Source: Collybia mongolica (Eukaryota > Basidiomycota > Agaricomycetes > Agaricales > Clitocybaceae). Taken from it: DNA of 64,000 nucleotides. The notes under the pieces were generated by a model that saw nothing but the letters and a program-made list of their open reading frames with translations, was not told the origin of the DNA and did not search any database. Both the position numbers and the translations under genes were made by a program. The DNA is taken from assembly GCA_013420905.1 (NCBI GenBank), contig JAAXNY010000013.1, positions 1,860,001 to 1,924,000 of the forward strand. Reading direction: 5' to 3'. Below, piece after piece: positions 23,241-63,901 of the stretch (positions within the stretch are counted from its first letter, which is position 1; each line of letters opens with the position of its first letter).

Positions 23241-24752
23241 TCAACCACTGGCTTCCTCGTTGATCAGTACTTCTGCAGCGTAAGAGCGTGGCTTGATTAT
23301 ACACTCGAATGGGGCAGGGTATCTGACAAAGAACGAGTTCGGTGACGAGAGGAAGCAGTGTTGAGGAGACTCACGACACTAATCCAGATGTAGGCTCAGG
23401 CTTGAGGCGGATAGGGCTTCCTTGGTCATCTACAGGAGGGCTGATATTATAGACGGAAAGAGTGAGCGCTATCATGGCGTAAAGTGAGCTATCACTTAGA
23501 TGCCTTCCTGGGCAAATGCTGTAGTGAAAGTGAGTTGATATCAAGCAATCAGGAAAAAGGTGGACTTCGACTTGCCGGCGACCAAACCCAAACGCGGCAA
23601 TAGGGCCATCAAGGCTGGAATCAATCTGGCCGTCCTTCAGCCAACGCTCCGGCATGTATACTTCAGGTGAAGGGTACAATTTGGGATCGTGCAAGATAGA
23701 CCTATGTCATATTTCCGTGTCAGTTATGGCACCAGAGCTCTCTTCCATAAGCCAGGACCATAACTCACCAGACATTCCCCATGACGATAGTGCCTTTAGG
23801 AATAAAGTACCCATTGTATTCGTCGTCACTACTACACATATGGGGGAGACCTATATCACGGCCGTAAACCTGGTTGGCTAACGAAATCGGAAGTATACAC
23901 ACCCAGCGGAGCTACAGGTTGCCACCTCATCGTCTCTTTGACCATGGCGTTGATATATGGCAAGAATTGTCTGTCCTTGAAATTTGGCAGCCTGTTTGAT
24001 CCTATGATAGAATCTATCTCTGCTTGGCCCCTTCGCTGAACTTCTGGGTATATAGCCATCGCCAAGAAGAAAGATCGAACAGCCGAGATGGTCTGTAAAG
24101 GTAAAATAAAATAAAAGTGGTTCAATAAAGCGACTCTACAGCTAGCGAATGTTGGTAAAATGCGCCAACTCACAGTATCCGCACCAGCTTATTAATTCTT
24201 ATCCATGATTATGCTGTTTTACCAAAGGCAGAAATCCCTTACCAATATAGGCTATACCAGCTATGTTTTTAGCTAGCGTCTCCTCGGCTCGACATTTGTC
24301 TTGTTCCGCAGGTAAGGCCTCAATGAATGTCGCAGCTACCGATGGAGATGCAGTCCCCAGACGCTTTAAATCATGATTTATCAATTGAACACATCTCAAA
24401 GTGAAGCGAAACCAACGATGGTTTCCCTCACATGCTCAAAAGGCATGTCTAACATTTCAGCATTTACTTTTCTCCAATGGGCCGCTTTCCGCTTGAAACT
24501 GGCGCCTGGCATCCAACTTGGTACCTTCTTCAAGATTGGCAACAGATCCACGAGAAACTGGCCTCGTATACCAGCTTCAGAGAGGCCTTGGAATGCCTCT
24601 TCAATAAGTGAGATGTATGGATCGTTTGTTTCAGAAATCTTGATTCCGTAAGATATATCCATGGCTGTCGCCGCAAAAGCACTTCAAGAGCTATTCACCG
24701 CATGGCTATGGCTAAAAAAAGGAGAAACTACTCACTGCCGTATGTGGTGTGT
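23241..24752 (-). pseudogene. cytochrome P450 3, 3' part (gene split by KDZ transposon)
   Basis: Downstream half of a P450 very close to gene 2. From the break at 24752 it reads through the end of exon 3, then exon 4 (MDISYGIKI, LPILKKVPSWMPG), the I-helix microexon (AGADT), KETMRW, YMPERW, FGFGRRICPGR and the stop at 23241-23243. Splice sites and frame look intact throughout, so the gene was probably functional until the transposon inserted. The intron before ICPGR begins with GC (gcaagt, down from 23575), as in P450 2. The 5' half is at 35876-36493; the two halves join cleanly once one copy of the 7-bp TSD is removed. Confidence 0.9.
24746..24752. repeat. target-site duplication of KDZ element, left copy
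   Basis: The 7-bp word ggtgtgt is present here and at 35876-35882. Comparison with P450 2 shows the uninterrupted gene has a single copy at this position. Confidence 0.8.
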
Positions 24753-24824
24753 CAACAGTCCGTGTAGATGTATTGTAACATAATCCACGAAATGTAGAAC
24801 GGGACGTCATAACGTCCCACTGTC
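24753..24824 (+). repeat. KDZ left terminal inverted repeat
   Basis: These 72 bp pair with the reverse complement of 35804-35875. The inner 20 bases are identical and the outer part is diverged. Confidence 0.85.
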
Positions 24825-24849
24825 CTGGCAATGAGCTTCTACAGCACAA

Positions 24850-25765
24850 TTGATTATAACTCACCACTCTCCAGCTCTTCGCCCATGTTATAACCCCCGC
24901 TATCCTTCGCCCATGTTATAACCCCCGCTATCCCTGTGTTCAATCGTGTTATAACGCCTCACCACCACTCTCTCACTCTTTGCCCACGTTATAACCCTCG
25001 CTCTTTGCCCACACGTTATAACCCCAGTTCGCGACTATGCCCGTGTTTAATCATGTTATAATGCCTCATCGCCGCGCTCTTGCTCTTCGCCCACATTATA
25101 ACCCCCGCTATCCCCGTGTTGAACCATGTTATAACGCCCCATCGTCACTCTCTCACTCTTTGCCCATGTTATAACCCTCTCTCTTTGCCCACACGTTATA
25201 ACCCCCGCTTCGCGACTATCCACTTGTTTAATCGTGTTATAACGCCTCGTCTCCACTCTCTCACTCTTTGCCCACGTTATAACCCTCGCTCTCCGCCCAC
25301 ACGTTATAACCCCGGTTCGCAACTATGCCTGTGTTATAATGCCTCATCGCTGCGCTCTCGCCCTTTGCCCACATTATAACCCCTGCTATCCCCGTGTTCA
25401 ACCATGTTATAACGCCTCATCGTCACTCTCTCACTCTTCGCCCATGTTATAACCCTCACTCTTTGCCCACACGTTATAACCCCCGCTTCACGACTATCCA
25501 CTTGTTTAATTGTGTTATAACGCCTCGTCTCCACTCTCTCGCTCTTCACCCATGCTATAACCCCGCTTTGTGACTGTCCCCTTGTTCAATCGTATTATAA
25601 CAGCTTCCGTGGGTATACTCTCCTTGTGGACTCATGTTATAATGCCCCTCCCATTGAAGAGATTCCCTTATAACTCGATCAGCATGATGGCAGCGTTGCC
25701 GCTCCTGCCCACTGGTCGGTGAATTTTGGCTTCCATAACAACCCGGACATGTTATAATACCACTA
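24850..25765. repeat. KDZ left subterminal repeat array
   Basis: About 25 copies of TTATAAC or a close variant occur at intervals of roughly 25-45 bp, mostly embedded in cccacgttataaccc or gtgttataacgcc. Larger units of about 250 bp also repeat (compare 25090-25330 with 25370-25570). The reverse complement gives gttataacgtgggc, the unit seen in the right array. Such arrays are probably transposase-binding sites. Confidence 0.85.
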
Positions 25766-25834
25766 CCTGTCGACGAGATCTATTGTATTTCATAACCCGG
25801 TGCTACGATTCGGGTGCAAATTACATAACGAAAA

Positions 25835-28800
25835 CTATGTATCATCTATATCAAATATTGGAGTTTCATCATCTTCATCCTCGATCTCAATTTCCAATGC
25901 GCCCATCTCGGCCCCTTCTTCGCGACCGCTTAAATGGTTTTGTAAAACTAACTTTGCTCGTTGCCGTACAGCCTCCCAATGTCTTGACCAGGATATCAAC
26001 CGGCGACGCTCCGCAGTTGCATTCTCCGCAGCGTAAGCGGCGATCCCTTCCGCAAGATGCGCAGATACCAGCGTCCGGCGGCCAGCTTGCTCCTCCCACC
26101 AATTTGCCTTCCATGCACAGAACTGAATGGAGCGGCGCATCTCTTCCTCGAGTAGCTGGATCTCTTCTTTCCACCGAGCAGCTCTTGCACGAGATTTCAG
26201 CCACTCAACACGGAGGTCTTCATAGTGTCGATTAGCTCCTGGTTAGGTTCAGAATATAGCGACGCACGGGATTCTGTAGAAAAGCCCTTGTCGAACTCCT
26301 TCCCTGTCGTCGAGTACCAAATCCACGATAATGTCCTATGACCCTCGCCAATAGCCAACTGGGGGTTGAATGTCGTTGCTGGTAAATTGATGAGACCTTC
26401 TTCTGCAATGTGCTCGCTGTTCAACCCAGCCATCGCATGCGCTTTCCTGGTCTCTTCCTGTTCTTCGTCAGCAAGCACTTTTTCACTTAACCCTCGTACA
26501 TCGTTTGGGTGTAATTCTCGCAAAGTATCCTCCCACTCCCCAGGTCCCCGCAAGCTAAGTACGGCAGACCGTGCCATGCGATACCGTCGACAGGCTACCT
26601 TAATTTTGGACTCGACATGCTCTTGAAGCGTCAGGAATCGGGTATAGTGGCGTTGCGAGGAGACATTCTGACTTTTATACCGGCTTGCGTATGTTCGTTT
26701 CATGAGCTGGCACCGAAGCATCGTCAGGGCCTCACATGCTTGGGCAAAACGAAGTTGGTCCTCGATTAGTGGAATATCGGCCATACATACCAACGCACGC
26801 TGGTCAGGGGCAAGGGAGGATGGAAGGTGGAGTGAAATACACTCTGGCGTCAACGTCGATACCTCATCTGTCGTTTCAGGTAGTCCAGGGAAATGTGCTC
26901 CAAGTCCAGGCATGTATTTATGCCGAACAGGATCGAGTTTTTGAATCCTCGTAAGTAAAGTTGTTCGACGTCGTTGAGTCGAAGTTTGTTGGCTTGCTGT
27001 TGTTGCGGTCCTCAGATCAGCCAGAAGCGCATGTCTAGGTTGTAAATCAGTGACCGTGCCAAATACTTGGTCATAACTGACATACTGAGCTTCTTCGAGT
27101 TCTAGCGCTTCGGCCACAAATGCACTAGGACTCACTCCATCTACAGAAGGCGGTGCTTCACCCTTCGCAACCCTTTCATGCTCTTCTTGAGACAGCCGTC
27201 GCATCACCTCCGGAAAGGTAACCTCTACATGTTTCATCAGCGAAAAAAACCTCCCTGACAACATGGAGACGCACTTTGTTCTGGCAGTTCATAGGGGCAT
27301 GGTAACGTATGATCTAGCTCCCACTTCTGCACCTGGATCTCCCATTGCACAAGTTGGTCAGCATGTTCAGCTTGAAGGCTCTCGGTAAACGCGGAAAGTG
27401 CTTGGTGATGAACAATGGCTTGAGGAATAGCAGTCGTCATCTTCCGGAGAAGCTCCGATGCTAGCTCGGAACATATTAGAATAGGGTTGGACAATTTAGC
27501 TCCTAGGGCGCTCACGCAATGAAATGGTCTTTCTCCAGTTGGCGAAGTTACAAAAGTCATCCAGTGTATCCCAGCGCCCACCTGGACCCATCATTGAGAC
27601 GGACGATGCGATGCCATTAAGTATGGACCAATTCCTTTCCACCCCCTCACCATCTGTCCGTCCTACCCCCGGGGCAAAGTTGAATGAGAACGGAGCATGA
27701 CATTTCACTTTATGTGCGGGAAGATGAAATTTCGGGACGAACGTCCGCAGGGATGTTGATGTGGGCAGCCGGAGTGACTCAGGCATGCCAGGTGCATTCA
27801 TTCGGGCGAAGATGTTTAATGCCCATTGGCACGCGATGTCGTATGAAAGGATGAGGAGTTGGATAAATGTTCCAGCTACGCTAGCGAAAAATAAATAATC
27901 CATGTTTGAATATCTGAAAGACGACGATGAACAGAGGGGAGATGCACAGGACAATCATAATGTACCGTTCGCCCTTTTGGAGATCCCCCATGCCATTCGG
28001 TCGATACATCCCCTGGCGAGCGCAACTAACAGAGCCAACACCCGTCGCCCGCAACCCCTTTGACTTCTTGCTGTTGGCATACCATAACGCTGCAAAGCCG
28101 ACACAATGCGATATCTATAGGGGTCGTTTGTAAAGGTTTTGAAAGAATACATGCATGGATAACGTCACCTCCTCTTGATCAGTATACTGTGCGATATATT
28201 GTAGATAAGCGTTGTTTTCGACAAATGTTCCCCACCCTGGGCCCAATGGAGGGTCCTTCGCATTGTCAGAACGTAGCCGGGCTTTCTGCTTGAAGTTGGC
28301 ATCTTCTGATAGGATGAGTGCATAAAGCCATCTTAAAATTGTGTTCAGTAAGGTTACGCATCGATAGGAACCATTTCATACTCACCGCTTCTCAGGAGGG
28401 ATGTCTTCCCATCGTTCAGGGATGTTGACATGGGGGATCGGACAGGCACGGCATGGTATTGAAAGTCCGCCTTGAGATGTTCCTTCTATCCCCATTGGGT
28501 CCTGACCACGTCCCGCACGTTTGGCCATCTTGATGTGCCGCCACTCCCGCACCATTATCATCCACTGAGATAGGCGATCCTTGGGGAAATATATATGGGT
28601 CGTCGTAATGGTAGATTTGGTAGATAGACTTACAGGTACATCTGATAGACCATTGCCAACCATCATCTGTTCCAACGCTCGGTAGAAATCAGTTGGAGCG
28701 ATCTGGCCTTGGAGATTTAAGATATGGAAGGACCGAAGAACGGCCATAGATGCGGCAGATTGTGGTTCGAGTGGTGTTGATGGCCACCAACCAACCTCCA

Positions 28801-29604
28801 AAAGCTGTTCACGAGGTGCCGGCGCACCATCGCAACCACAGAAGTCAACATTGATGGAATGGATCCCATTGATGTGAAGGACGACGAAATCTTTGTGGCC
28901 CTGGTGACGAAATGGGCAAGAGGACCGCAGCTGGTGTCCTAGTTGCATGCGTAGACCCAAATTCTGCAATGTGGTCCGTTGAAAGAAACCGTTCTTCCAC
29001 TCCTGTAAGAAGATCAAAATGTACTTATGTTCGGAACGGCGCAGTAATCTACATACCTCTATAATATGCAGTGGCTCAGTGCGATGGCCCTCAATGATAC
29101 ATGCTTTGCAATAGAGGCCATATCCAAAACAGTCCCCACAGCGGAAGATTGGACCTGGTCGTCGGCACGAGGCACCTGCGCAATAACCGTTATGTCGACT
29201 GCGGCCATCCAACATAAGGCAAGCGTCCAGGTACTCCTGCCGATATTGTTTCCAAGTCACAAGCGGAGCATCCTTGAGTTAAGATCAGATGTAATTCCTG
29301 TGATTGCGGAACCAATACACACCGAATTCTGATATCGTTTGGCCTTCACACGTATGTGTATTCCTGCGGGATTATCAACGTTGGCTGGGCTGATGGGCTC
29401 GGAGGCGAATGTGTCTCCGAATGGCATGTCGTCGATCCCGGATTCCTGAGGCTCATTGTCATTGGCAGGCAAATGTGATGTAGAAGCAACAGTGGTGAAG
29501 ACCTTGCGGATACGTGTAGACCTATTGCTCACGGTTTGTACTCGGCGTCGGGGCGGCCCAGGCTGGGCATTATGGGTTTGTAATCGTGTCTTTCCCTTCA
29601 CCAT
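25835..29604 (-). CDS. KDZ transposase with CxC2 cysteine cluster
   Basis: The transposase of the element, about 1,100 aa over roughly nine exons. It starts at 29604 (MVKGKTRLQTH). After a basic, disordered N-terminus comes the CxC2-type cysteine cluster (CAGASCRRPGPIFRCGDC, then YCKAC and GH). KDZ core motifs follow: GVGSVSCARQG, LSYDIACQW, FVPKFHLPAHK, CHAPFSFNFAPGVGRTDGE, VERNW, WDTLDDFCNFANWRK; the Asp of SYDIACQW and the Glu pair before RNW are candidate catalytic acids. C-terminally there is LSWIWY, EDLRVEWLK and a coiled, acidic tail (IEIEDEDDE). Near 26217-26250 the frame shifts; a 29-nt GT-AG stretch with a CTAAC box could be an extremely short intron, otherwise it is a one-base indel. 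Most other introns are ordinary. Confidence 0.88.
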
Positions 29605-31838: not shown

Positions 31839-34550
31839 ATGCCTCAGGCTTCGAAACACAAACGGCGCGAGGGCAAGAAAGCCGGTGTCAAACCCAGGCC
31901 ACAGGGTCGTCAAAACGCGTTCAGTGGTGCGAAAATGGAATTCCTGGAGTCATACAAAGATCAGTTCCTTGATTCGACTGACCGTGGAGCATTCTACACA
32001 TTTGTATCCAAGGCATTCATTGAGCGGTTCGGGTATAACCTTGCAATCGAGGCGAACCCTGACCCAGATGATGATGACGTGCTCACCCCCGAAGAAATCG
32101 ATACTTCGTTGTCTGAGGAAGAGCAGAACGAGGAATGCGATAGACGTAGCGCATTCTATTGTGAGCTTCGTGATGTAAGTGATGCATAGTATGGCAGGGA
32201 CGAAAACTCATACCCTTCGGCACTAGAAACTTGGCTGCTGGTATCGTTACCGCTACACCAATAGGAACCCCACATCTGTCAATAATATCATCGACCGCAT
32301 AACGTCGTCATCCGTATCCCGCCCTAGAAAAAAAACGGCCGTCAATCTGTACTCAGATCTCAACAAGGACAAGTTGAAGCGGCAGTTCGACGCACTCTGG
32401 GAATCCGTCAAGGGCTCTCTGAAACCTCGAGACCGAATCCGAATGTGGAATGAACACACGAGAGATTGTTGGGAGAAGGAGACGCCAGAAGTGAGAGATG
32501 CGATCGTGAAACAAACGGATGACGAAAACAAGAGAGCGTTGATAGACTGGAAGAAGAAGGCAACGTTCACTGGTTCCGCTGAGGACTTTGACCAGTAAGC
32601 CCAGCTTTGCGCACTATAGTGGAATGGAATGCTCACCTTCGAACATGTAGAGCTTGGAAAACTGCGGAACAAGTTCTTCCTTCCTTCGCCGATGCAATGT
32701 CGGAGTGGCTGGGGGCGAACATCGTTATTCTAGCCATAACGCCACTCGGCTCCTCAAATGGTGAAATCGTAATGCAATCGTGAGTTATAACCCTTTCATT
32801 GATAGCTGTTTGACTCACCCTTACCAAGGGCTCAATCCGATACTTCAAAGGGGATGACCAAAAGACTCTTGCCTGAGTTCGATCCTGACGGTTGGAGTAA
32901 GTTCCAGGACATGGCGATAAAGTACGGAAAGGCTTTCTTTTGTGAGTAAATTTGAGTATCATGTGGCAAAAAACTCACTCACTCAATAATGTAGCACCAG
33001 AGGAGTGTCGTCGTCGTGTATTGATGATGGAAGATCAGGAGGAAGCAGATGGCGACTTTCCGCGGGACGACACCATGAACGGGGACACATCCAAGTCCTC
33101 GGGCCGGGAGTTGACTTCCGGTTATCTCCAAACCTCCAACAATCAGTTGATCACTGGCTCGATCGACAATCCGATTCCGACGACTGATCAGCTGACTCAT
33201 CAACTGACTACACCTGTCCACCATGACAACGCCATCGACGATACCCTCCCTCGTGAATCGGGGCATGAACCTACCGGACAGTCAGCCACCGTCTCACCAC
33301 CCATGGCCGTCGACGATACCCTCCCTCATGAATCGGGGCATGAACCTACCGGACAGTCAGCCACCGTCTCACCACCCACGCCTCTTTACGATGACACCAA
33401 TTTCGGGGGCTCCACCGCCTTGCTGTCCATGTTCAATTTGCCTCCCTGTGATGACGCCAAGCTAGCTCAGTTGAACTTCCTTCAGATGCCTAGCGGGGTG
33501 CCGGCGCAATATCAAGTACCCAGCGACTCCTGGTTCAACAACCTCCTCGACTGCCTCCCTTCCGGTAATCTACAAAACGGGAATTTGGACTCCACCCTCG
33601 CCCAAGCTTATCCACAACAGCTTGGAGTCCCATCGGCATCTGAAGCACCTGTGCCCTCGTTGGTCGAGACAGGTTTCTTTTTCCCGTCTGCATCGCCACT
33701 TCCAACCCCGACGATGCAACCTCCATCAGTCATGAATTCGTCCCCACCGGGTGCAGTTCCAACCACTGACATTACCCTTTCCCCCCACGCTCCTTCCCAA
33801 GAGACCGTCGTTCCACATGCCATGCCAACACCACCGTTTCCACCTCCCACACCCCTGCTGGCGGGTGGTGCTGCTCCTGCGGTGCTGAGCGGGACCAACC
33901 AGCCGGCTTTCATGACCCCTGCCCCGCACGCTCCCCTGCTGCAGACCGTGGTTCCACATTCCACGCCCGCACCACTGTTTCCACCTCCCGCACCCCTACT
34001 GGCGGGTGGTGCTGCTCCTGCGGTGCTGAGCAGGACCAACCGGCCGGCTTTCATGAACCTCACCCCCCACGCTCCTTCTCCACAGACCACTGTTCCACAC
34101 GTCACACCCACACCGTCGTCTCTACCTCCTGTGTCCCTACTTGCAGGTGGTGCTGCTCCGGCGGCAGTGCTGAGCGGATCCAAGCGGTCAGCCCCCAGTC
34201 TGGGCCGTGCGTGCCAACCACTAAGTTCGTCACCAAACGAGGTCCCACAACTGCCCCCTGCTCCCTTAAGCACTCCATGTGCTGACCCCCCAGCGCCGTC
34301 CACGACACCGGTGGTCCCTGCAGAGAAGGAAAATGATCAGCCCGCAGTGTTGAGGGGAACGGCGAATAGAGGGAGGAACGGAAGGAAGCGAAAGGCAGGT
34401 GAGATGGTGCAGGGTGATGAGGTGTCAGTGGGTGAGGGAGCTCCTGTGCAGGCACCGAAGTCGCGCCGTGTCTCCAATTTACCTGACCGTCTCAAGAAGG
34501 GAGGATATGCTCCGCCGAAGAAGGGTACACGGGCGAAAAAAGTAACCTAG
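31839..34550 (+). CDS. KDZ element second protein, Pro-rich C-terminus
   Basis: Five exons (31839-32174, 32227-32594, 32651-32779, 32829-32941, 32995-34550) join in frame into 833 aa. The N-terminal third (KKAGVKPRPQGRQNAFSG, KMEFLESYKDQF, AFYTFVSKAFIERFGYNL) and the central part (RDRIRMWNEHTRDCWEKE, LPEFDPDGWSKFQDMA, SPEECRRR) follow a layout I have seen in Agaricomycete hypothetical proteins tied to KDZ elements. The C-terminal ~500 residues are Pro/Ala/Thr-rich with internal tandem repeats (LLAGGAAPAVLS three times; a 90-bp direct repeat at 33236-33383) and end in a basic tail. It is transcribed divergently from the transposase. The function is unknown; a DNA-bridging or regulatory partner of the transposase is conceivable but unproven. 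Confidence 0.75.
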
Positions 34551-34739: not shown

Positions 34740-35770
34740 TGCATTATAATATCGCTACTGAGTTATAACATGACACTAAGCAACGTAGGGGGAGAATAAC
34801 AGACTGAATTATAACTTGAACATGGTACCAATTGATTAATGATGTCGGGAGTGCTGACCACCAAGTTATAACGTTCAGATCTTGTCGATGAGAAGTGACG
34901 TCATAATGCATCCGAGCCGCTCTGGGGACTCAGAATAATAACCTCTCAGGGTAAGATGGCTGAATTATAAAGGTGTAGACTGAATTATGTTGTAGGGGGA
35001 GGGTGGGGTGCAATGGACTCGAGACTAGATTATAACGTGGCAGCGGTTTGCAATGTGGGCGAGCAGCGGGTGTCAATGGTCGGAATTATAAGCAGGAGGC
35101 AGGTAGCCAGAGTTTTATAACGTGGGCAAGCAGCGGGTTGCAATGGACGGAATTATAGCCTGACGGCGGGTAGCGGGGGGTTGTAATGTGAGTGTGGTCG
35201 AGCAACGGGTTGCAATGGACCGAATTATAACATGGTGGTGGGCAACGAGGGGTCATCACGTGGCCGAGCAGCCGGTTGAAATCTCGGAATTATAATGCGG
35301 CGGTGGGAAGCGAGAGTAGTGAAGCGAGAGTATTATAACGTGGGCAAGCAGCGGATGGCAACGGACGGAATTATAACATGGGCGAGCAGCAGGTGGCAAC
35401 GGACGGAATTGTATTATAACGTGGTCGAGCAGCGGATGGCAACGGACGGAATTGTATTATAACGTGGTCGAGCAGCGGATGGCAACGGACGAATTATAAC
35501 GTGGGCGAGCAGCGGGTGGCAACGGACGGAATTATAACGTGGCAGCAGGCAGAGGGTGTGTTATAGTGTGGGCGAGCAGCCCGTGGCAATGGAGGGAATT
35601 ATAACGTGGCGGTAGGCAGCGAGAGTGTCACGTTATAACTTGTTGGGTGGGGAGGCGGCTGGTAGCGAGGGTTTATAACTCATTGAGGCCTCGGCAGATG
35701 CCATGTGTGAGCATTATAACGGAAGTGGAACGCGTAATAACGTGGGTGAACAGGAGGGGAGTCGTGGGTT
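34740..35770. repeat. KDZ right subterminal repeat array
   Basis: About 20 or more copies of a unit near gaattataacgtgggcgag, often followed by cagcgggtggcaacgga, repeat at 30-60 bp spacing. It is the inverted counterpart of the left array. Copies near 35400-35540 are almost identical, pointing to recent local expansion. Confidence 0.85.
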
Positions 35771-39350: not shown

Positions 39351-39360
39351 TATAAAAGGC
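39351..39360 (+). promoter_or_regulatory. TATA box of cysteine-rich gene A
   Basis: The sequence tataaaaggc lies 47 bp upstream of the start codon. An identical box at almost the same distance precedes gene B, and both share an upstream atattttta block. Confidence 0.65.
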
Positions 39361-39397: not shown

Positions 39398-41012
39398 ATG
39401 CAACTTTCCGGAGTTAAACTCATTATCACCTCCTCTCTATTTGTCAGTGCATGGAGTGTCGCTGTAGTTGATAATGACAGCACTCCTGGAGGACGCATTG
39501 TTACCACCTCAAAAACACTATTAAAACCACTCCTCAATAGTCAGGATGGTATGCAAGGCAAAGAGCGGAGAGAGAGCGTTCTCCGGGGTCTTTTACAGGT
39601 TAGGCAACGTGTGTGCCCATCTGGGTATGGTCAATGTCCGTTGGGAGTGTGTTGCCAACTTAATGGAGGGTGCTGTCCAAATAGTCAGTTGCGTTCTTTT
39701 CCACTTCAGACATGTATTAAATATTTTATACTTCTTTTCTAGACACATGTTGCGGACCAAATCAACGCTGTTGCTCAGGCAAGTAATTTCGATTTTGTAT
39801 ACTTGGGGGGGATTGTGCTGACTTTTTCAACTTTTAGTGGGCTGCTGTTACCTCAGGTACCCGGTTGTCCCACATCACTTGGAGGATGCAACATTTATTG
39901 TTTATTAGTGACTATTGTGTGGAAGACCCATCAACTGGTCGACGGGGTTGCTGCCCCCTTGGAGAGACGTGTTCGGGTGTGAGCGACACATGCGAAGATG
40001 AGGGTTATTTACCCTGTTCCAACGATGATTTTTGCTGTCGTATGTCTGCCCCCCCAGCTTGATGTGGTGATATAGTCTGACGCCGACCCGTTCAGCTTCT
40101 GGCGAAAGCTGTTTCAGGGACAGCAGTAATAGGCCAAGATGCAGCTCTTCAAGGTCAAACCCTGATCCAACCACGCGACGAGGTAAGGGCTAGAACCATC
40201 ATCCCATTATATACTTTTCTCATATTTGGATGCCCAATAGCAACAACGCGCCAAACCACTTCAACGAAGTCGACATTCACTACCCGAGCGGCTTCCGCCA
40301 CAGGGGTGTCATCGGCCACGAAAACCTCTGTTCTTGATCCAACTATTTATTCAACTCCTTCAATCAGTACACAGAGCGTTGTTGTTGGCGCCGACGACAC
40401 CCGAATATATTGGGTTGGAACCTCATGGATCCTAGGGAACTCGAGTTGCAATTCTACTGCACAATCAAGGAAGACGTCTGAAAATGGAGGCTTCTTGCTC
40501 AACGTGCCCCCACGTATGTTTGTATTCCTTTTACGGTTGTATTTATTTGCTTTACATATGTTGCAGGTACAACGGTCTATCTTGCTGTGTCGGGCCACAA
40601 TGTGGAGTACGAGATCACGGTCGATGAACGCTCGACAACATACAGAGAACCTTCGATCCTTAATGACTGCAAATTAACGTGGTCCTCTGGCATTCTCGTC
40701 AATGACACCAATATCATCGTCACAGTGCTAGGATCTGCTTCTTCTAGTTCCGATGAACGACGACAATTGTCTAATACTTGGTCATTCGAGTTTCACCACT
40801 TCTTGTGAGCATCCAATCTTGCTTCGTCCTGTAAAAGCCCTGACAAGACTTGTAGAATGGCCGCGCCTGATTTTTACACCAGTCCAACCAACACTGGCTT
40901 GATCAACCCATCGGGTTTTACCAGTAATTCAGCGATATATCTCAAGACTCATTCGATGTTGTATACAGGCCTCATGATAGCTTTTGTTAGTTTCTTTAGT
41001 TTCTTCTGTTAG
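39398..41012 (+). CDS. secreted cysteine-rich GPI-type protein A
   Basis: First of four tandem paralogs. Exons: 39398-39683, 39743-39778, 39838-39856, 39909-40039, 40096-40182, 40241-40513, 40567-40804, 40856-41012; 408 aa. Residues 1-22 form a signal peptide (MQLSGVKLIITSSLFVSAWS). A propeptide-like stretch (LLKPLLNS, then RRESVLRGLLQVRQ) precedes the cysteine-rich region, where CC pairs recur (GVCCQ, GCCPNS, CCGPNQRCC, GCCPLGETC, DDFCC). A Thr/Ser linker follows, then a module with VVVGADDTRIYWVGTSW, SCNSTAQS and DCKLTWSSG, and a hydrophobic tail (LYTGLMIAFVSFFSFF) fitting a GPI signal. No known family was recognised; a cell-wall or surface role is inference. Intron 2 is GC-AG (donor at 39779). 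Confidence 0.88.
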
Positions 41013-42160
41013 TCCCGGACAGCGTTGGGTTGGAGTTGTTCTGAGGTTGTCTTATGATGTAGTGTTAAGTATGATAGTATTCTCGATTCTGTCAAGTACG
41101 ATTTTACGAATAGAACTACTATAAATATTCTGAGTTCCTCGGACTACTTTCCAAGCGAACTTACACGCGTCTGCGATTCTATATCGTTTTACGCATCCTG
41201 TGAGCCGATAGGAACTACAAGTATTGGTGTTCGGATTTCCAACTCTGTTTGCCGGTCACTGCCGGTCAGTTCTTAGGGCTGGTCACGCGCACGGCGAGCG
41301 TCCATTAAGTTTTCTTCTATTATATTCCACGAACTCAGTTCTTCAGCTTCAACCAGCACAAACCATATAGGTTCTCTATCGTAACCAGTACCCACTTGTT
41401 CCCGTTTCCATTCGGCATTATCTCGGACTGGCATTACGAAACTCGAGCCGTTTCATACGGAATACTGGGGATCTATCACTTATAATAAACGACTTCAAAC
41501 TGCAATTTATAACTAGGACTCATCTCAACACGCGATCTTATTGCTGGGGTCGGACTGGATACTTGTGGCACTCTCACCTACTCTGCCTTGAGTTGGAGCA
41601 CACGGACCTACTTGGTGTCTACAGTTTTACTGGGACTTATCGTGCAACGAGGGCGAAAGGCTGCAACCCTGAACATTGGATTACAGTCACCGCCATGGAA
41701 ACTCTTTAGATTTACGCTGTAAGACAGACTTCTAGTTGGCGCCGAGATGTGATGGAAAGTGCCCTATTTCGAGGACATGATCGTTCAGCCAAAATGAGGA
41801 CAATTTTCCTACGCTGGCAACGGAATATATCTTGGACGAACACACTGGCATATGCGACATCACTGGCGGTGTCCAGCTTGTGATGTTGACAACAATCTCT
41901 CTACCTTGCGAAATTCGGATCCTTCACGAAGACATGTCAAACATGCCACTTATGTGATTAAATGAGGTACGTGGACGCTCGGCTACCCGACTCATCAATG
42001 AGATTGCTGCCCGCTTTTGAACCTGTGCATTATTTATACCACGAAACATCCTGGTTGGGAGCTCTCAACACTTGTAATCTTCTGATAGGAATTTTCCGCG
42101 GCGAAACCGAATGGGAAGCCATGAAGGTCGATATTTTTACCCCCCCTCCCCCGTCAACGG
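41013..42160. other. intergenic between genes A and B
   Basis: No gene was recognised. A block near 41793-41930 (ttgcgaaattcggatcc) recurs upstream of gene C near 44563, marking the duplicated 5' flank. Confidence 0.5.
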
Positions 42161-42170
42161 TATAAAAGGC
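42161..42170 (+). promoter_or_regulatory. TATA box of cysteine-rich gene B
   Basis: tataaaaggc lies 48 bp upstream of the ATG at 42209. With that spacing the in-frame ATG at 42191 would lie at or before the expected transcription start, which supports 42209 as the start codon. Confidence 0.65.
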
Positions 42171-42208
42171 GATGAGAACACACTCTGGCTATGTATCCAA
42201 ACAGCGAC

Positions 42209-43892
42209 ATGTGGCTCTCTAGAATCATCGTTCTTGCCTCCTTTCTCTTCGTCAGTGCGCGCGCTGCTATGAGCGATGACGATAGTATTCCTGGCAGACG
42301 CTTGATCGTTGGTACCCCAGCCACACCTTTGAAACATCTCCTTGGCAGTCACAATAGTATAAGGAGTGTAGAGCGGAGGGTGAGCGTACTGCGTGGTCTG
42401 CTACAGATTAGACAATTTTTTTGCGATCCTGGGTATAGTGAATGCCCATCATCATCAGGGTGTTGCCCATTTGGCGGAGATTGTTGTGCAAATAGTCAGT
42501 CATGTTCATCACAACACCGGGCACCCGTACTGATCCCTTTGACTTCCCCTTCCAGATAAATGTTGCGACAGTGGCCAGCACTGCTGTAATGGCTAGTGAC
42601 CTTTTTGACAGACTAAAGGAACGTTGTGCTGACTCTCCCGTTCATAGGTGGTGGCTGTTGTAAAAATACGCAAGTCCCCTCCCCCCATGTTTCTCCAGGT
42701 TCAGAGTACTTATCGTTGATTAGTGAGAACTGTGTTATAGACAATACAACAGGAGACCACGGTTGCTGTCCCATCGGAGAGTCGTGTGTGAAAGGGCCAG
42801 ACTTGTGTGACATCCGAAGTGACTTGCCCTGTTCCAACGAAGACTTCTGCTGCCGTATGTTCATGTCTCTTTGCTACAAGGCGCTGTCATGCGCTGATGT
42901 CCACATATATAGCTCCTGGTAATATTTGTTATCGCGACAGTGATGGTGACCCAAGATGCAGGACAGGGTCAAATCCCCCTTCAACGACACGTTCAGGCAA
43001 GTGCTGTACTTATCTCTCGATCATACCAGCTCCTTCCTCACATTTTTTTGTTTAACAGTGGTGACACACTCAACTACTTCAACGAAGTCGCCGTCTCCTA
43101 CTAAAACGTCTACTGCGGGGCCCGTAACGTCTACTACAGGGCCCGTAACGTCTACTGCGGGACTATCTTCCACGAGGACAGGCACTCTGCTGGGTCATGA
43201 ACCAACGGTTTATCCATCCCCTCCTCCCTTCTCCGGATCGCAGAGTATCGTTGTGGATGCCACAGACGTGCAAATATTCTGGGATGGACCGTCATGGACC
43301 CTCGGTCCATCGAGCTGCAATTCCACTGCGAAGTCAAAAAAGACATCTTTCGCTAGACACTCCTTGGCCTTCAAAGTGGAATCAGGTAAGTTGGTAATTC
43401 TTCCATAACCGATACCGACTCATGTTTAAAATATGTAGCTACGTCGGTATACCTTGCCCTGTCAGCCCGCAATGTCGTGTACAATATCTGGATGAATGAT
43501 GACTCAACAACATACACCGAAACCACGACAATCGATGATTGCAAGTTAACCTGGTCATCCGGCATCATCACCACCACCACACTCATCAACGTCACTGTGG
43601 AAGGCTCCGCTACTTCCCCACTTGATGAGCGACGACAGCTACCTGATGATTGGTCCTTCGAGTTCCACTATTTCCTGTAGGTGTTTCCCTCGAACTTCGT
43701 CCCATTGGGTGCTTACAGGTATACAGAATGACTACGCCCGATTCTGCGACGACTACTGGTTTGATCAACCCATCTGGCCTCACGGCTCCAAGCAATGCGG
43801 CCATGAGCCCCAAGGCTCAGCCAGTGTTGTATCCAGGCCTTGTGACGGCTTTCATTGTCTTCTTCAGCTTCTTCTTAAATGTAATTCTGTAA
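42209..43892 (+). CDS. secreted cysteine-rich GPI-type protein B
   Basis: Second paralog; 429 aa in eight exons: 42209-42494, 42556-42591, 42648-42669, 42724-42854, 42913-42996, 43059-43385, 43439-43676, 43727-43892. Starting at 42209 makes exon 1 exactly 286 nt, the same as in the three other copies. Signal peptide MWLSRIIVLASFLFVSARA, then RRVSVLRGLLQIRQ, CC-rich modules (GCCPFGGDCC, CCDSGQHCC, GCCPIGESC, EDFCC), a longer Thr-rich linker with TSTAGPVTSTTGPV repeats, the VVVDATDVQIFWDG / SCNSTAKS / DCKLTWSSG module and a hydrophobic C-terminus (GLVTAFIVFFSFFL). Introns 2, 3 and 5 have GC donors (42592, 42670, 42997). Function unknown. Confidence 0.88.
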
Positions 43893-44882
43893 GATGGCAA
43901 GTTTGCCCTTTGGTCCTGGAATATGAAAAATTTTAACTCCCCCGATTGATTGATTCTTTTACTCCAATGATTATTTTCTGAGCCTTTCTAATATTCGCAG
44001 GAAGAACTAAGGCCTGTCGTTTCACGCAGTCGGGCATGGTCTTTGACATAATCTAGCCCCTCCAATCTCGAGAACAAAGCAGCGTGCCAAATTTTTTAAA
44101 ACTCGACACAAAAGGCGAAAGTGGGCCATGGCAACAGCCAGTATGGAACAACGAAACTGACAGCATACTAGGTTCAGACATTTAAATAAAATAGACGCGA
44201 GCCCACCAACGCTTGACCCTGCCTACTTGGACAAATTTATTAGCATGCCGTTATAATTGTAGTAAATGTCAGTCGAACCCTAAGTACTTAGGCAGATCCG
44301 AGGAAAAGAGGCGGATTGACGCAGGAGACAGAGGACTAAAATTGACGTCCTGACCGGTGCCTTAAAGCGCCTTCCATATTTGGAACATCGAAAAAACTCT
44401 CCTCTCTTTGTTTGTCGACCACATTGTTTTTACCATTTGGTTCCATTCACGGTACATCGACGGCCGTCTCCAACGACCATGACATTGATTACAACCAGGG
44501 ACATCCAGGATCCCATCACTCTCAGTCTAATCGTTGATAAAGTGATAACGATCTTCCATCTTTCGAAATTCGGATCCTGTGCAACGTGCCCAACCCGGCG
44601 CGAGCACAGCTCGCGCTCGTATGCAAACTACCTTGTATTCTTCACGTCCAACATAAATTCCAATCGTTGGTGTCCATGGATCACCCTGGATCACCCATAA
44701 CACTAGGCCCATGGCTTGGCGACCGCATATATCTGGAACGGGAAGCTTTGGAATTAAAGTCACCATTCCGGTGTGCATGGAAGCTGAACGACATTGACCC
44801 TGAAAAGTGGAGACGACGCTCAGGAGCATGGCCGCCCAATAAAATAGTCATCGGTTCCTGACCCTTATTTTCCACTTTCACC
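43893..44882. other. intergenic between genes B and C
   Basis: No gene was recognised. The segment 44766-44890 (ggtgtgcatggaagctgaa, then ttccactttcacc) is repeated at 48052-48165 upstream of gene D, so C and D share a duplicated promoter region. Confidence 0.55.
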
Positions 44883-44890
44883 ATAAAAGA
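44883..44890 (+). promoter_or_regulatory. TATA-like box of cysteine-rich gene C
   Basis: cataaaag lies 69 bp upstream of the ATG, directly after ttttccactttcac, which also precedes the TATA box of gene D. Confidence 0.5.
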
Positions 44891-44951
44891 AAGTGGGAAT
44901 GAACTACGTACACGACCATCCCATCGCTTTAGCGTGTGTTTGACTCACAAG

Positions 44952-46580
44952 ATGCAACTCTCCAGAGTTCGCCTTATTATTGCCTCTCTTCTCTTTGCCA
45001 GCGCGTGCACCGCCGCCCCAGGCGTTGAAAGCATCCCTGGAGAACTACTGGCAGTCAGCGCCCCAGATACACCTCTCAAGCCACTTCTCAACAGTAGCGA
45101 TGGGATGAAGAGCGAAGAAAGAAGGGGTAGTGTTCTTCGCGGTTTGCTGCAAGTCAGACAATATTCTTGTCGACCTGGGTGGACAGGGTGCGCGTCAGGA
45201 GGATGTTGCCCAATTGGCGGGCAATGTTGTTCTAACGGTTAGTCGCGTCTCAATACCGCAGATTCTCCTATTTACTTAGTTTCTTACAGATAAATGTTGC
45301 GCCACTGGCCTGCATTGCTGCCAAGGTAAGTAGTTTGTTTCGTCACGTCAGGGTACACCATACTGACCTTCATGACTCTTAGGTGGTGGATGTTGTGAAC
45401 TTGGGTATGTGCTCGTCTTGCGTTGCGAGATCAGAAAGTTCATTATAAGCTAGTGACAATTGTGTCCGGGTCGCGTCCACAGGCCAACGGGGTTGCTGTC
45501 CTATTGGAAAGGTATGTGTTGGTGGTGGTGGTGGTGGCGACGGCGGAAGCTCGTGTGTGACCCCAAGTTATTCACCATGCCCCAATGACAATTTCTGTTG
45601 TCGTACGTTTACTTCCGCTTATTTCAAAATCCTAATACCATCTGACTCCTGTCTGTGTAGCCCCCGGAGATATTTGCTATCGTGATAGCAATAATGCACG
45701 GAGATGTCGCACTCCAGGGTCACCTTCTGTCTCTATCACAGGCAAGGATTGGGTTTATCATATCTCTACAACACCTTCTCATCGTATGTCCTCGCTCAAC
45801 AGAAACAACTTTCCGCACCACTTCGACATTTACTTCAATAACCGCTTCGACGCCATCGTTCACCTCAGCGGCAGGAGGTGGGGCTGGCCTTGTTCCCACA
45901 GTCTATCCAACACCCACCCCAATCTCGGGCACCCAAAACGTCGTTGTCTATGCTACAGACACACGCATCATCTGGGCTGGAGCTTCTTGGATTCTCGGGC
46001 CCTCGAGCTGCAATTCCACCGCCCAGTCGAAGAAGACGACGTCCATGGGCCACTCCTTATCGTTCATGGTGTCTTCGGGTAGGTTTCCTTTGTCTTCATT
46101 GATGTAGATCTCTTGCTAATTTCTCATAGCCCGTTCCGTATATCTTACTCTATCAGCCCGCAACGTGGAATATGACATTTCGATCAATGGCCGCTCAACA
46201 TCTTACCAGAAAACGACAACACTTGACGACTGCAAGTTGACATGGTCGTCTGGTATCATTACCTCGACCTCTACTATAATCACCATCACGGTACGCGGCT
46301 CTGCCGCTCCATTGTATAATGGCCGACGACAGTTGCCTTCGGACTGGTCGTTCGAGTTCCATAATTTCTTGTGAGCACCTCAATTGTGTTGACCTTGTCA
46401 TGTATTAATGTAATGCGCAGAGTGACTACGTCTGATTCTGCAGCTACCAGTGGCTCGAGCGGTGGGAACCAGCCACCTAGTTTTCCAGGAGCTGGTAACG
46501 CAGCGATAGGCCTCGGAGCTCATTCGGTATTGTATATGGGTCTTATGGTTGCTTTTGTTGTTTTCTTTGGTTTCATCTAA
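44952..46580 (+). CDS. secreted cysteine-rich GPI-type protein C
   Basis: Third paralog; 416 aa in eight exons: 44952-45237, 45290-45325, 45383-45404, 45454-45602, 45661-45741, 45803-46078, 46130-46370, 46421-46580. Signal peptide MQLSRVRLIIASLLFASACT, then RRGSVLRGLLQVRQ. The cysteine region is the clearest of the set: GCCPIGGQCC (exon 1), CCATGLHCC (exon 2, 36 nt), GGCCELG (exon 3, 22 nt), GCCPIGKVC and NDNFCC (exon 4), CYRDSNNARRC (exon 5). A Thr/Ser linker, the VVVYATDTRIIWAGASW / SCNSTAQS / DCKLTWSSG module, and a terminal LYMGLMVAFVVFFGF follow. A Gly run (six GGT codons) expands exon 4. Intron 5 is GC-AG (donor 45742). Confidence 0.9.
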
Positions 46581-48159
46581 GAATAGCTATAAAGTATACA
46601 TGTGAATTACGAAATGTGGGGGTGGTTTCCCATAGTTGTGGGCCTGACTATCAAAAGACAATACACTTGATCAAAGTCACCTTCTCGAGCCTCCCCATAA
46701 AACTCGGGACATTTATTTGCTGTTCTGAGTTGAGGATCTTATTTAGATAGCAAACATCAAGCTATGGTTTTTTTTTTGAGGCAAACGGAGCTGTGGAAGT
46801 GGCCAGAATGAAAATAAGCATTACACTGCCCATAGGCAATGATGGGCCACTGATAGTAAAACTGCAACTGCAGATGGCTACCGTTAAAGTGTGGCCGGGG
46901 ATGTGTAAGAAGATGACATGGGCAAAGTGTACGTCTGCTACATCACAATCACCCTCCAATCCGTAGTTGTTGGTCAATGTGCGCTCTGCAAGAACTACAC
47001 ACATCGTAACCAGATCTCTCGAACCGTGTACCATTGGCAGGAGCGAGTTGGGGAATGTCCCAAAATCGCCAAGCAACATCCAGTCAGATATCATAAAATT
47101 CCGCGTAAAGGACACATATTGAGAGTACGTGACTGCCCTCCATATCGCCGATCACGATGACCCCCCTTCAATAACAGCAAATTACCATCGTATATGGGTT
47201 CGAATAAACATCCACTGAGACGGCGAGTTGATATAAAGGAGCTTGAGTCGTGAAGGCAGTGAGATTCAAAACACACATGTAAGGGTAGGTGGGGTGCATT
47301 GGTGGCCTTGTATTTGGAAATCCTTTCGAGACCTCGATGATGCCACCTGCGGCGGATCCTCCATCTTCATCACCCACCAGGTCACGTAGAAAAGAAATTC
47401 AAGCCTTTAACGAATTTTGAGATTATTACGTTATTCGGTGTGAGATGTAACCATCGCGCGAGGAAAGCCGGTGATCCGGTTGTTTGGCAGAGGCCCTCAA
47501 GAAAACTACTGAACTTGAACGCCAAGATCCTCGGGCCGCTGGTTCCGAGTCAAACTTCAGCACTCATAATAAAGTTCAAGGTCTTCAGCCACGTACTACT
47601 TGTATGATCAACTCGCAAGTCCGACCGGTGAGGCCTCGTCTGCCATTGTTTTGTAACCTCAACCTGTAGCTAACAGAAGAACGTAGTTTTCCTGGATTTG
47701 GACTGAGGGCCTGACTCTCGATTGTTTGAAAGAAGCTCGAGGTTGAAGAGATATCGTTTCCGATCCAACCGGGGCCCGGATCAAGTATCACTGCAGTTTT
47801 CTGTTACTGCAAGGCATTCCCCATGTGCACCACTTGTCAGTATTCTATCGATGGAGTGATAAAAATCTCCCCATCCCCTGAAAACCGGACTCAACATCTC
47901 CAGACGCCGTTCAACCCTTCACATTAGATATAATCACTTCCTACCTTTGGAAGCTATGGATCACCTGCACCACTTGACATGATCCTTGGCCTTTCACAAA
48001 CACCTTAAATGCGCCTCTGATGTCCTCGAAGAGGAATCTATTAGATCACGACTCCGGTGTGCATGGAAGCTGAAGGATAAGCCCTGAAAGTGGCTATTTT
48101 TATACTTCCCCACCTAGCATGGTCGTCTGTTCCTGGCCTTCGCCTTTCCACTTTCACCT
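46581..48159. other. intergenic between genes C and D
   Basis: No gene was recognised in 1.6 kb. The last ~110 bp repeat the 5' flank of gene C. Confidence 0.5.
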
Positions 48160-48167
48160 TATAAAAG
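48160..48167 (+). promoter_or_regulatory. TATA box of cysteine-rich gene D
   Basis: tataaaag lies 62 bp upstream of the ATG and follows tttccactttcacct, the same arrangement as in gene C. Confidence 0.65.
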
Positions 48168-48221
48168 TAGCTAAATTGCGGTACGACCCCAGCATTCCTG
48201 TCTGCTTGTTCAACTAACACA

Positions 48222-49859
48222 ATGCAGCTTTCCAGGGTTCGATTCGTCATCGCCTCCTTTCTTCTCGTCTCTGTGAGCGCCGCCGCTCGAGATGGTGGCA
48301 GCATTCCCGGAGACCTCTTAACTATAGTCACCCCGGACACATTGTTGAAACCACTCCTCAATAGCTCCCCCAGTAGTAATAAGGTAGAGCGAAGAGAGAG
48401 AGTTCTGCGTGGTTTGTTGGAGGTTAGACAATCGTCTTGCCCAATTGGGTGGTCTGGATGTTCATCGGGAGGATGTTGTCCTATCGGCGGACAATGCTGC
48501 TCAAATGGTTAGTCGTGTATCTCTCAACTCAGAATGCCTGTATGAAATCTTATATATTAATTTCAGATAAATGTTGCGACACTGGTAACCATTGCTGTCA
48601 AGGCGAGTCATGTTGTCTGGCGGACGGAGTAACGCGGTACTGACTTTCCCGACCCGATTCATAGGTGGTGGCTGTTGTGAGCTCGGGTAGGTAGTCGTCT
48701 TGTCTTTTCTCAGAGGTCAGGGGATTAATGTTTTCATTAGTGACAACTGCGTTAAAGTTGTATCAACCGGTGAACGGGGTTGCTGTCCCATCGGGAAGAC
48801 ATGCGTTGGTAACGGAGGAAACCCATGTGTGACCCCCAGTTATTCGCCATGCCCCAATGATAATTTTTGCTGCCGTATGTTCACATTGTCTTATTCTAAC
48901 GCATTGGATCGAGGTTAATTTGACTTATGCCCATGTAGCCCCTGGTGATATCTGTTATCGCGATAGTGATGGTGATCGACAATGCAGAACTCCAGGGTCG
49001 AATCCTCCTCCAAACACACGACCAGGCATGTACCAGACATATCGCGACCAATGACTTCCTAATCGTGATTGTTGTTCTGTAGCAACAACTTTCACATCTA
49101 CGTCAACGAGGTCGCTGACCTCTACGAGCACCAGAACTGCGACCGGCCGTGTTCCAACTGTTTATGCAACCCCAGCCCCTTTGTCTGGCACCCAAACCGT
49201 TGTTATCCATTCCGGAGACACCCGAATCACCTGGGGTGGAGCGTTTTGGCTCCTCGCGACTTCCAGCTGCAATTCTACTGAGGAATCAAAGAAGACAACG
49301 ACCAGCGGACACTCTTTGACATTCACAGTGATCTCAGGTATGTTGAGACCCCTTTATTGGTTGGTGGAGGTTATCTTATTGTTACTTCTTAGCCACATCT
49401 GTCTATCTCAGTCTGTCGGCTCGCAATGTCGAGTATGATATTACGATCAACGGTCAAACAACAACATACACAGAAACGACATCCCTTCACGACTGCAAGC
49501 TATCGTGGTCCTCGGGTATCATAACTACAACCACAACCCTGATCACCATCGATGTACGAGGTCCTGCTGCTACTCTGTCTACTGGACCCAACGATTTCAC
49601 TTTCGAATTCCATAACTTCCTGTGAGTGTTTTGGTTACGCTGCATCTTTCGGGGTTCTAACGGGGTACCCAGAGTGACTATGTCTGATGAATTTGCAGCC
49701 AGTAGTGGCCTGGTTAGCAACCCATCTGGCCCCAACCCAACTGGCCCACCAAGAGCTACTAGCGCGGCTACGCATTTCGGCGCCCAATCGGTGGTCCATG
49801 CATTCCTTGTCACAGCGCTCGCTTTGTTTTTTACTTTTTTACTGTCGGCCACGGAATAG
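48222..49859 (+). CDS. secreted cysteine-rich GPI-type protein D
   Basis: Fourth paralog; 411 aa in eight exons: 48222-48507, 48567-48602, 48665-48686, 48741-48874, 48939-49025, 49083-49337, 49393-49621, 49673-49859. Signal peptide MQLSRVRFVIASFLLVSVSA, then RRERVLRGLLEVRQ, cysteine modules GCCPIGGQCC, CCDTGNHCC, GGCCELG, GCCPIGKTC, NDNFCC and CYRDSDGDRQC. A shorter Thr-rich linker, the VVIHSGDTRITWGGAFW / SCNSTEES / DCKLSWSSG module and a hydrophobic tail (SVVHAFLVTALALFFTFLL) follow. Introns 2 and 5 have GC donors (48603, 49026). It is closest to C in promoter and exon sequence. Confidence 0.88.
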
Positions 49860-63315: not shown

Positions 63316-63593
63316 TACCCTAAGCTTGAGGCTCCCCGCATCGCCTTGACGTAGTCTGGTGACCTTGATTCTTGTCATAGCTCGAACAGGGTCTATTGTG
63401 TGGTGGAGTAACATTCGAAGCTCGTTGCACCTTCCAAGCACCCTTCACAAGGTAAAAGGGACAATTACCCCCCCCACATTCATTAATCCTTCACATCGTC
63501 ACAGTAGTTCATTCAAGTGTGCAAAGGGATAAATTGAAGATCTATTCATCTGGTTAGATGGCAGTCAAATCTGACACCCTCTATTCGACAAAC
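63316..63593 (+). repeat. diverged tandem duplication, copy 1
   Basis: Begins taccctaagcttgagg and ends ctattcgacaaac. It aligns along its length with copy 2 at a period of about 310 bp. No open frame. Confidence 0.88.
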
Positions 63594-63625
63594 CGAAAAT
63601 GAATTTCACACCGACATGAGGCCAA

Positions 63626-63901
63626 TACCCTAAGCCTTGAGGTTCCCTGCTAATCGCCTCGACGTAATCTGGTGACCTTGATTCATGTCATAGCTCAAAC
63701 ACGGTCTATTATGCGGCGGAGTAACATTTGGATCTTGTTACACCCTCCAAGCATTCTTCACAAGGTAAAAGGGGCGATCACCCCCATATCCATTGATCCT
63801 TCACATTGTCACAGTGATTCATTCAAGTGTGCGCAGAGATAAACCGAAGATCCATTCATCTAATTGAATGGCAGTCAAATCCGACACGCTATTCAACAAA
63901 C
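63626..63901 (+). repeat. diverged tandem duplication, copy 2
   Basis: Begins taccctaagccttgagg and ends ctattcaacaaac. Most differences from copy 1 are C/T or G/A transitions. No open frame. Confidence 0.88.

Follow-up and report, generated by a model that had tools for sequence, protein, structure and literature searches.

A tandem array of cysteine-rich, probably surface-anchored protein genes with CC-bearing micro-exons in Collybia mongolica

What kind of protein is encoded by four neighboring genes whose cysteine block is partly carried by exons of 36 nucleotides (nt) or fewer, and what is the meaning of such small exons? The genes, g1–g4, form an array of four intact paralogs with eight exons each on the + strand of the Collybia mongolica genome, at positions 39398–49859 of a 64,000-nt stretch of contig JAAXNY010000013.1 (assembly GCA_013420905.1, positions 1,860,001 to 1,924,000), which we refer to as the window. 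Taken together, the analysis makes it probable, though well short of certain, that the array belongs to an old, uncharacterised Agaricales family of glycosylphosphatidylinositol (GPI)-anchored glycoproteins whose head would be a disulfide ladder edited by recombination between its repeat units.

The models of g1–g4 are spliced from start to stop and rest on conservation between the paralogs (Table 1). They bear out the four same-orientation, eight-exon paralogs described in an earlier note on this DNA. Each gene has seven introns of 49–64 nt, and the start-to-start distances from g1 through g4 are 2811, 2743 and 3270 nt. The phases after exons 1–7 are identical in the four genes (1,1,2,1,1,1,2) and exons 4–8 are variable in length; the array is locked in exon number, phase and position rather than in length. 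As the earlier note had it, exon 2 is exactly 36 nt in every array gene, and this size is repeated in a fifth copy on another contig (C11); exon 3 is 19, 22, 22 and 22 nt in g1, g2, g3 and g4. The exon 1 of exactly 286 nt reported in the same note is present in all four genes but is not a strict lock: the alignment contains compensating one-codon indels in exon 1 of g1 and of g2, and exon 1 of the fifth copy is 274 nt, so the equal length is partly coincidence. The micro-exons described there were recovered, whereas the motifs proved looser than their literal wording, with CCxxGxxCC in three of the four proteins (the g1 variant is CCGPNQRCC), GGCCELG in two, DTRIxW in three (g2 has DVQIFW) and DCKLTWSSG in three (g4 has DCKLSWSSG).

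The four proteins share 47–66% identity. Synonymous divergence (dS) among them is 1.07–2.04, which is saturated, and the ratio of nonsynonymous to synonymous divergence (dN/dS) is ∼0.15–0.40; the array proteins are under purifying selection despite their saturated silent sites. When introns were compared in 42 pairs, 18 aligned at or below the shuffled mean (20 shuffles each). Because silent sites are saturated, introns have diverged and the proteins are under purifying selection, the constant exon sizes appear to go beyond chance and the tiny exons carrying CC units look real. When a tree was built on the C-terminal module, P0003 of Collybia nuda grouped with g2 (support 95/94) and P0002 of the same species with g4 (100/99), with g1, g3, P0001, P0005 and P0006 left without a resolved place (numbers beginning with P denote related sequences). 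P0001, P0002 and P0003, all from C. nuda, are assigned to one 79,082-base contig. Since g2 and g4 have supported C. nuda orthologs, the duplications behind them predate the split from that species and are old.

Along the protein, the predicted order of parts is a signal peptide, a pro-region in which a conserved GLL precedes an RQ that stands immediately ahead of the first cysteine, a head of paired cysteines (CC-x5-CC-x4 repeats with a granulin-like cysteine order), a stalk of Ser, Thr and Pro, a C-terminal module of ∼130 residues in which two cysteines are conserved, and a hydrophobic tail that would be swapped for a GPI anchor. The signal peptide and GPI tail were assigned by hydropathy alone: all four array proteins and the fifth copy have a hydrophobic N-terminal segment (maximum 12-residue hydropathy 1.97–2.72) and a hydrophobic C-terminal tail following small residues. 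Serine, threonine and proline make up a fraction of 0.52–0.62 across the 37–60 residues of the linker in each array protein; the fifth copy has no linker. GLL is invariant before the first cysteine in 16/16 relatives aligned, the C-terminal module is conserved in 11/11 sequences aligned, and P0010, P0015 and P0023 are named 'GPI anchored protein' in UniRef. The family probably consists of secreted, cysteine-rich surface proteins with a GPI anchor, which may also be glycosylated. This agrees with the earlier note, where GPI-anchored surface proteins with a Thr/Ser linker had been proposed.

Homologs were found in Collybia (C. nuda), Mycena, Laccaria, Agaricus, Macrolepiota and Amanita, with a partial homolog in Ceratobasidium; part of the searching scored only candidates sharing most words. 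A taxonomy check placed Collybia and Macrolepiota in the Agaricales, to which Mycena, Laccaria, Agaricus and Amanita belong as well. The family is thus present in at least six Agaricales genera, yet it has no curated family match in the libraries searched. No Pfam family scored above its cut-off for the four array proteins, the fifth copy, 16 relatives or 20 proteins overlapping these, and no NCBIfam family matched the 16 relatives at E below 0.1. The view that the proteins match no named family, also taken from the earlier note, holds for these curated libraries but must be amended, in that homologs exist under automatic names (hypothetical, 'GPI anchored protein' and 'Carbohydrate-bind...', the last incomplete). 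In the open-licence literature, as judged on titles and the starts of abstracts, we recognised no paper describing the family. The missing curated match may be due in part to micro-exons spoiling gene models: the nearest models, those of C. nuda, are all incomplete, with P0001 lacking the signal peptide, P0002 having its head out of frame and P0003 comprising only the C-terminal part. By sequence, the C-terminal module has no solved relative, with nothing in the PDB below E 8. A CE2_N jelly roll (PF17996) was considered for this module and rejected, the match being confined to P0007 (E 0.0027, 18.2 bits against a cut-off of 27.9, 32 residues), and no CE2_N match was found in the C. mongolica genome at E≤10. 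A sub-threshold DUF868 match (E 0.015) was obtained for g2 alone.

Each of the four array heads contains 22 block cysteines, spaced as C-6-C-4-CC-5-CC-4-CC-5-CC-4-CC-5-C-10-CC-5-C-6-C-7-C-5-CC-5-C-9-C apart from minor loop differences, and the fifth copy contains 16, corresponding to the first 16 of these. There are 28 block cysteines in 12/16 relatives and 22 in the other four, in a count that left out P0002, P0003, P0005, P0006, P0016, P0017, P0019 and P0024 as partial, mis-modelled or of other architecture. The extra stretch of the 28-cysteine forms consists of two further units of ∼13 residues. The 22-cysteine forms of Agaricus and Amanita lack the distal six, and P0018 (Mycena venus) has 22 by way of another loss. 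Steps of six would correspond to three bridges per module, and a head built as a disulfide ladder could do without some of its units provided that cysteines are lost six at a time.

The exon structure of the longer heads could be deduced from P0024, an open reading frame (ORF) on a Laccaria-like contig that reads through introns. A frame-shifted reading of P0024 contains GGCCRAGYWCYSTG, 14 residues shared with P0011 and P0021 at that place (the longest match among 40 shuffles, for which P0021 was used, was 7); P0022, whose sequence differs from that of P0024, matches it over 9 residues. By hand, we deduced from P0024 an exon A of 39 nt with three cysteines and an exon B of 72 nt with seven, both phase 1-1 and located between exon 1 and the exon-3 equivalent. 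The introns bounding these units are all phase 1 and fall within one codon of the same unit place. The array matches the profile of its relatives at 100% probability, and hhalign places a 25-column gap directly before the exon-2 CC of the array. With the deduced lengths, the 5 nt that precede the CC in exon A and the 31 nt of exon B from the second-unit CC add up to 36 nt, and array exon 2 therefore fits what one crossover between units would leave. Dropping the whole of exon A or exon B would leave the head with an odd number of cysteines. The loss actually seen is of six, which favors unit recombination over exon shuffling. The head may thus have been edited by unit recombination over evolutionary time. 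The evolvable modular scaffold of the earlier note survives insofar as unit number and domain content vary among relatives and within the genome, but exon shuffling in the strict sense is not supported by these counts.

Protein searches of the genome (46 Mb, 26 contigs) found no further full-length locus besides the array. The fifth copy, on contig C11 (703962–703298, minus strand), has exons 1–3 of 274, 36 and 22 nt and an exon 4 continuing in frame into a tail that resembles exon 8, giving a protein of 163 aa without linker or C-terminal module. Its exon-4 part scores 46, 34, 46 and 48 against g1–g4 (shuffle maxima 37, 32, 32 and 30), and its tail scores 42 and 42 against g1 and g2 (shuffle maxima 32 and 31; 200 shuffles each). 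Among 12 tests for remnants of exons 5–7 downstream, one exceeded the shuffles (g2 exon 5, 29 versus 24; 30 shuffles each). Such a gene could have arisen by direct head-to-tail joining, which we suppose to occur occasionally. A small cysteine-rich gene on contig C1 (∼2316222–2316796, minus strand) contains the distal cysteine motif of the family; its product also has a stretch rich in serine and a tail that is hydrophobic.

Could the head be the active part of a wall-tethered antimicrobial or protease-inhibiting protein, with the C-terminal part a mere anchor? The C11 copy keeps the disulfide-dense head but neither the linker nor the C-terminal module, the distal motif occurs in the C1 gene and old paralogs have been retained in tandem, all of which would suit this function. 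Nevertheless, no Pfam inhibitor or defensin family matches, the PDB matches are at chance level (defensin E 3.3, toxin E 2.2), the divergence is purifying rather than diversifying (with dS saturated) and conservation extends to the C-terminal module (11 sequences aligned); we consider the explanation unlikely. A second alternative is that the proteins are surface sensors, with a head that reports wall stress or ligands and with GPI forms serving as co-receptors of transmembrane forms. P0019 from Ceratobasidium, which shares part of the cysteine block (44% identical, with 31% of the query covered), has a probable transmembrane stretch with a long tail, and weak receptor-transmembrane profile matches at 285–312. 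This single distant example is the only one, however, and no transmembrane form was confirmed in the C. mongolica genome, where P0019 as a query recovered the C1 gene and the array as well as uninspected matches to its linker and membrane part; a sensor function is quite improbable on this evidence.

The small exons also raise the question of regulated splicing, since the earlier note had suggested that alternative splicing could produce variants. Exon 2, with its 36 nt, four cysteines and phase 1-1 boundaries, would then be a cassette, made leaky by GC donors, and isoforms would result. Exons 2, 5 and 6 are indeed phase-symmetric, and exon 2 can be skipped in frame. GC donors are present in 7/28 array introns, among them introns directly after exons 2 and 5 of several genes, and occupy intron 2 in 4/5 copies when the C11 copy is included. 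Table 1 of one study gives a fungal mean of 1.009% for GC-AG introns (PMC7072748), against which 7/28 has P∼1e-8 per intron, or 3.5e-5 counting 3/7 positions. One paper ties GC-AG introns to alternative splicing in human genes and cites a C. elegans case (PMC7242645), and another describes a 20-nt microexon that acts in Trichoderma as a functional switch (PMC11121469).

As a control for the GC donors, we turned to three P450 genes located elsewhere in the window. Of their 26 introns examined, 19 were verified by splicing through conserved protein (the other seven were without resolution), and three of the 19 are GC-AG, a proportion not distinguishable from that of the array (3/19 versus 7/28, Fisher p=0.72); across both sets, 10/47 introns are GC-AG. 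Because the P450 genes are also rich in GC-AG introns, the excess belongs to the genome or region, and we rejected GC donors as a mark of regulated splicing in the array. Counting motifs across 93 kb, of which 53 kb lie in the window but not in the array and 40 kb elsewhere, gave GC 22/297, GA 22/397, GG 19/377 and GT 42/333, a weak pointer to a GC excess beyond the array; a stricter version of this count was uninformative on GC donors. If genome-wide, the excess would degrade automatic annotation of this genome. The P450 genes lie at 9400–12700 (+), 18900–22300 (−) and 22300–26000 (−), and two of their GC-AG introns fall between FGRR and ICPGRH of the heme motif.

Other features of the array and its relatives also disfavor a cassette. 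Exon 3 is not frame-neutral, intron retention keeps an open frame in only 1/28 array introns, and the loss seen in evolution is of six cysteines whereas exon 2 holds four. The CC units are included in the continuous ORFs of P0021 and P0022, from Laccaria-like contigs, and in P0004, whose source type is unknown. Given that P0024 has introns there, P0021 and P0022 are best taken to represent cDNA. We infer that the CC-unit exons are constitutively spliced, contrary to the earlier suggestion, and find an alternative-splicing scaffold very unlikely. We give equally little credence to a compound version in which the head is edited in six-cysteine quanta by recombination at CC codons within a phase-1 micro-exon lattice and the 36-nt exon is additionally a regulated cassette, so that one gene yields heads of different length.

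The reading we favor, an anchored family with a head edited by unit recombination, has several observations weighing against it. The C11 tail scores below the shuffle maxima against g3 (26 versus 32) and g4 (20 versus 33), and 10/42 intron pairs exceed the shuffled mean by at least 0.10, chiefly introns 1 and 2. The stretch counted in P0019 has 17 cysteines, neither an even number nor a step of six, and the g4 tail ends in a charged residue (SATE). Splicing in the relatives was inferred from protein records, as opposed to DNA or RNA reads. The granulin likeness is one of cysteine order only, with no Pfam match at E≤1, and in a block-only PDB search granulins (E 0.28–3.9) rank with chains that are cysteine-rich but unrelated, among them a disintegrin (0.05) and LDLR-type repeats (0.15).

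Under this same reading, the tiny phase-1 exons would be the framework in which the repeats lie, and lineages would alter head length by recombination between repeat units. The likely role would be that of a surface head which binds or protects, either where hyphae touch or in organising the wall, and old paralogs may have been retained for divided duties; this surface role is our best guess and is held with modest confidence. The family offers a compact example for tracing repeat units, exon phase and cysteine parity together during unit gain and loss. To our knowledge, such joint tracing has rarely been documented in fungi.

Upstream of the coding sequences, the TATA-like box TATAAAAG is located 47–62 nt before the ATG in g1, g2, g4 and the C11 copy, and g3 has only CCATAAAAG. 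The window contains five matches to TATAAAAG, three of them before g1, g2 and g4, with 1.37 expected. ATATTTTTA is present upstream of g1, g2 and the C11 copy. A single promoter element common to all copies was considered and rejected: TATAAAAG is not found before g3, and a combined pattern matched g2 only.

Elsewhere in the window, a non-LTR (long terminal repeat) retrotransposon-like ORF pair is located at 2517–8545 (+), the second ORF having endonuclease and reverse-transcriptase domains. KDZ-type transposon sequence occupies 26197–29278 (−) and includes an ORF at 28382–29278 with a CxC2 cysteine cluster and an ORF at 26197–27288 (−) with no Pfam match. Tandem repeats are found at 24877–25567 (up to 278 nt), 33781–34164 (141), 35330–35619 (43/67) and 63316–63901 (313).

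Table 1. Positions in the window of the array genes, their exons and the TATA-like boxes
Feature	Position	Strand	Remarks
g1 gene	39398..41012	+	408 aa, 8 exons, spliced model
g1 exon 1	39398..39683	+	signal peptide (predicted), pro-region (LKPLL..RRESVLRGLLQVRQ), first 6 Cys
g1 exon 2	39743..39778	+	36 nt, CCGPNQRCC; GC donor GCAAGT after
g1 exon 3	39838..39856	+	19 nt
g1 exon 4	39909..40039	+	distal cysteine block
g1 exon 5	40096..40182	+	cysteine block end
g1 exon 6	40241..40513	+	Ser/Thr linker, C-terminal module start
g1 exon 7	40567..40804	+	C-terminal module
g1 exon 8	40856..41012	+	hydrophobic (GPI-type) tail
g2 gene	42209..43892	+	429 aa, 8 exons, spliced model
g2 exon 1	42209..42494	+	
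g2 exon 2	42556..42591	+	36 nt; GC donor GCTAGT after
g2 exon 3	42648..42669	+	22 nt; GC donor GCAAGT after
g2 exon 4	42724..42854	+	
g2 exon 5	42913..42996	+	GC donor GCAAGT after
g2 exon 6	43059..43385	+	linker with 21-nt in-frame tandem repeat at 43105-43161
g2 exon 7	43439..43676	+	
g2 exon 8	43727..43892	+	
g3 gene	44952..46580	+	416 aa, 8 exons, spliced model
g3 exon 1	44952..45237	+	
g3 exon 2	45290..45325	+	36 nt; GT donor
g3 exon 3	45383..45404	+	22 nt
g3 exon 4	45454..45602	+	
g3 exon 5	45661..45741	+	GC donor GCAAGG after
g3 exon 6	45803..46078	+	
g3 exon 7	46130..46370	+	
g3 exon 8	46421..46580	+	
g4 gene	48222..49859	+	411 aa, 8 exons, spliced model
g4 exon 1	48222..48507	+	
g4 exon 2	48567..48602	+	36 nt; GC donor GCGAGT after
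g4 exon 3	48665..48686	+	22 nt
g4 exon 4	48741..48874	+	
g4 exon 5	48939..49025	+	GC donor GCATGT after
g4 exon 6	49083..49337	+	
g4 exon 7	49393..49621	+	
g4 exon 8	49673..49859	+	
TATA-like box TATAAAAG, g1	39351..39358	+	starts 47 nt before g1 ATG
TATA-like box TATAAAAG, g2	42161..42168	+	before g2 ATG
TATA-like box TATAAAAG, g4	48160..48167	+	before g4 ATG

Among known systems, granulins have a signature of twelve cysteines in the order C,C,CC,CC,CC,CC,C,C. The start of the array block has the order C,C,CC,CC,CC,CC,C(C),C over its first 12–13 cysteines, but with shorter loops, an extra distal six cysteines and one C present as CC. Granulin membership was rejected on hidden Markov model (HMM) tests: no Granulin (PF00396) match was obtained at E≤1 for the four array proteins, the C11 copy, 16/16 relatives or the 20 overlapping proteins, and the array was not matched in a genome-wide search, in which exon boundaries break up the block. 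In PDB profile searches, granulins came up at E 1.4, 0.06 (granulin-5, once the best match) and 4.2. CFEM domains have eight spaced cysteines, whereas the array heads have 22, many as CC pairs. CFEM proteins, described as cysteine-rich fungal extracellular membrane proteins (PMC4530338), resemble the array proteins in being fungal cysteine-rich surface proteins. No CFEM profile in Pfam matched the array proteins, the C11 copy or the relatives.

A second comparison concerns the gene architecture. P450s are not repeat proteins, and the microexons of the Phanerochaete chrysosporium P450 genes carry no repeat units, unlike the array exons. These P450s are, like g1–g4, tandem basidiomycete paralogs, and the study of them describes microexons and small introns in the clusters, intron number and position kept in 10/16 clusters, and alternative splicing in CYP63 (PMC1184071); this precedent shows that tandem genes with microexons are not unusual in basidiomycetes. 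The closest counterparts of the array are unnamed Agaricales entries, represented by C. nuda BDZ94DRAFT_231968, Laccaria amethystina K443DRAFT_676973 and Agaricus AGABI1DRAFT_106297, with others in Mycena, Macrolepiota and Amanita. They differ from the array in the 28 block cysteines found in 12/16 of them, compared with 22, and share with it the same order of parts and the same C-terminal module.

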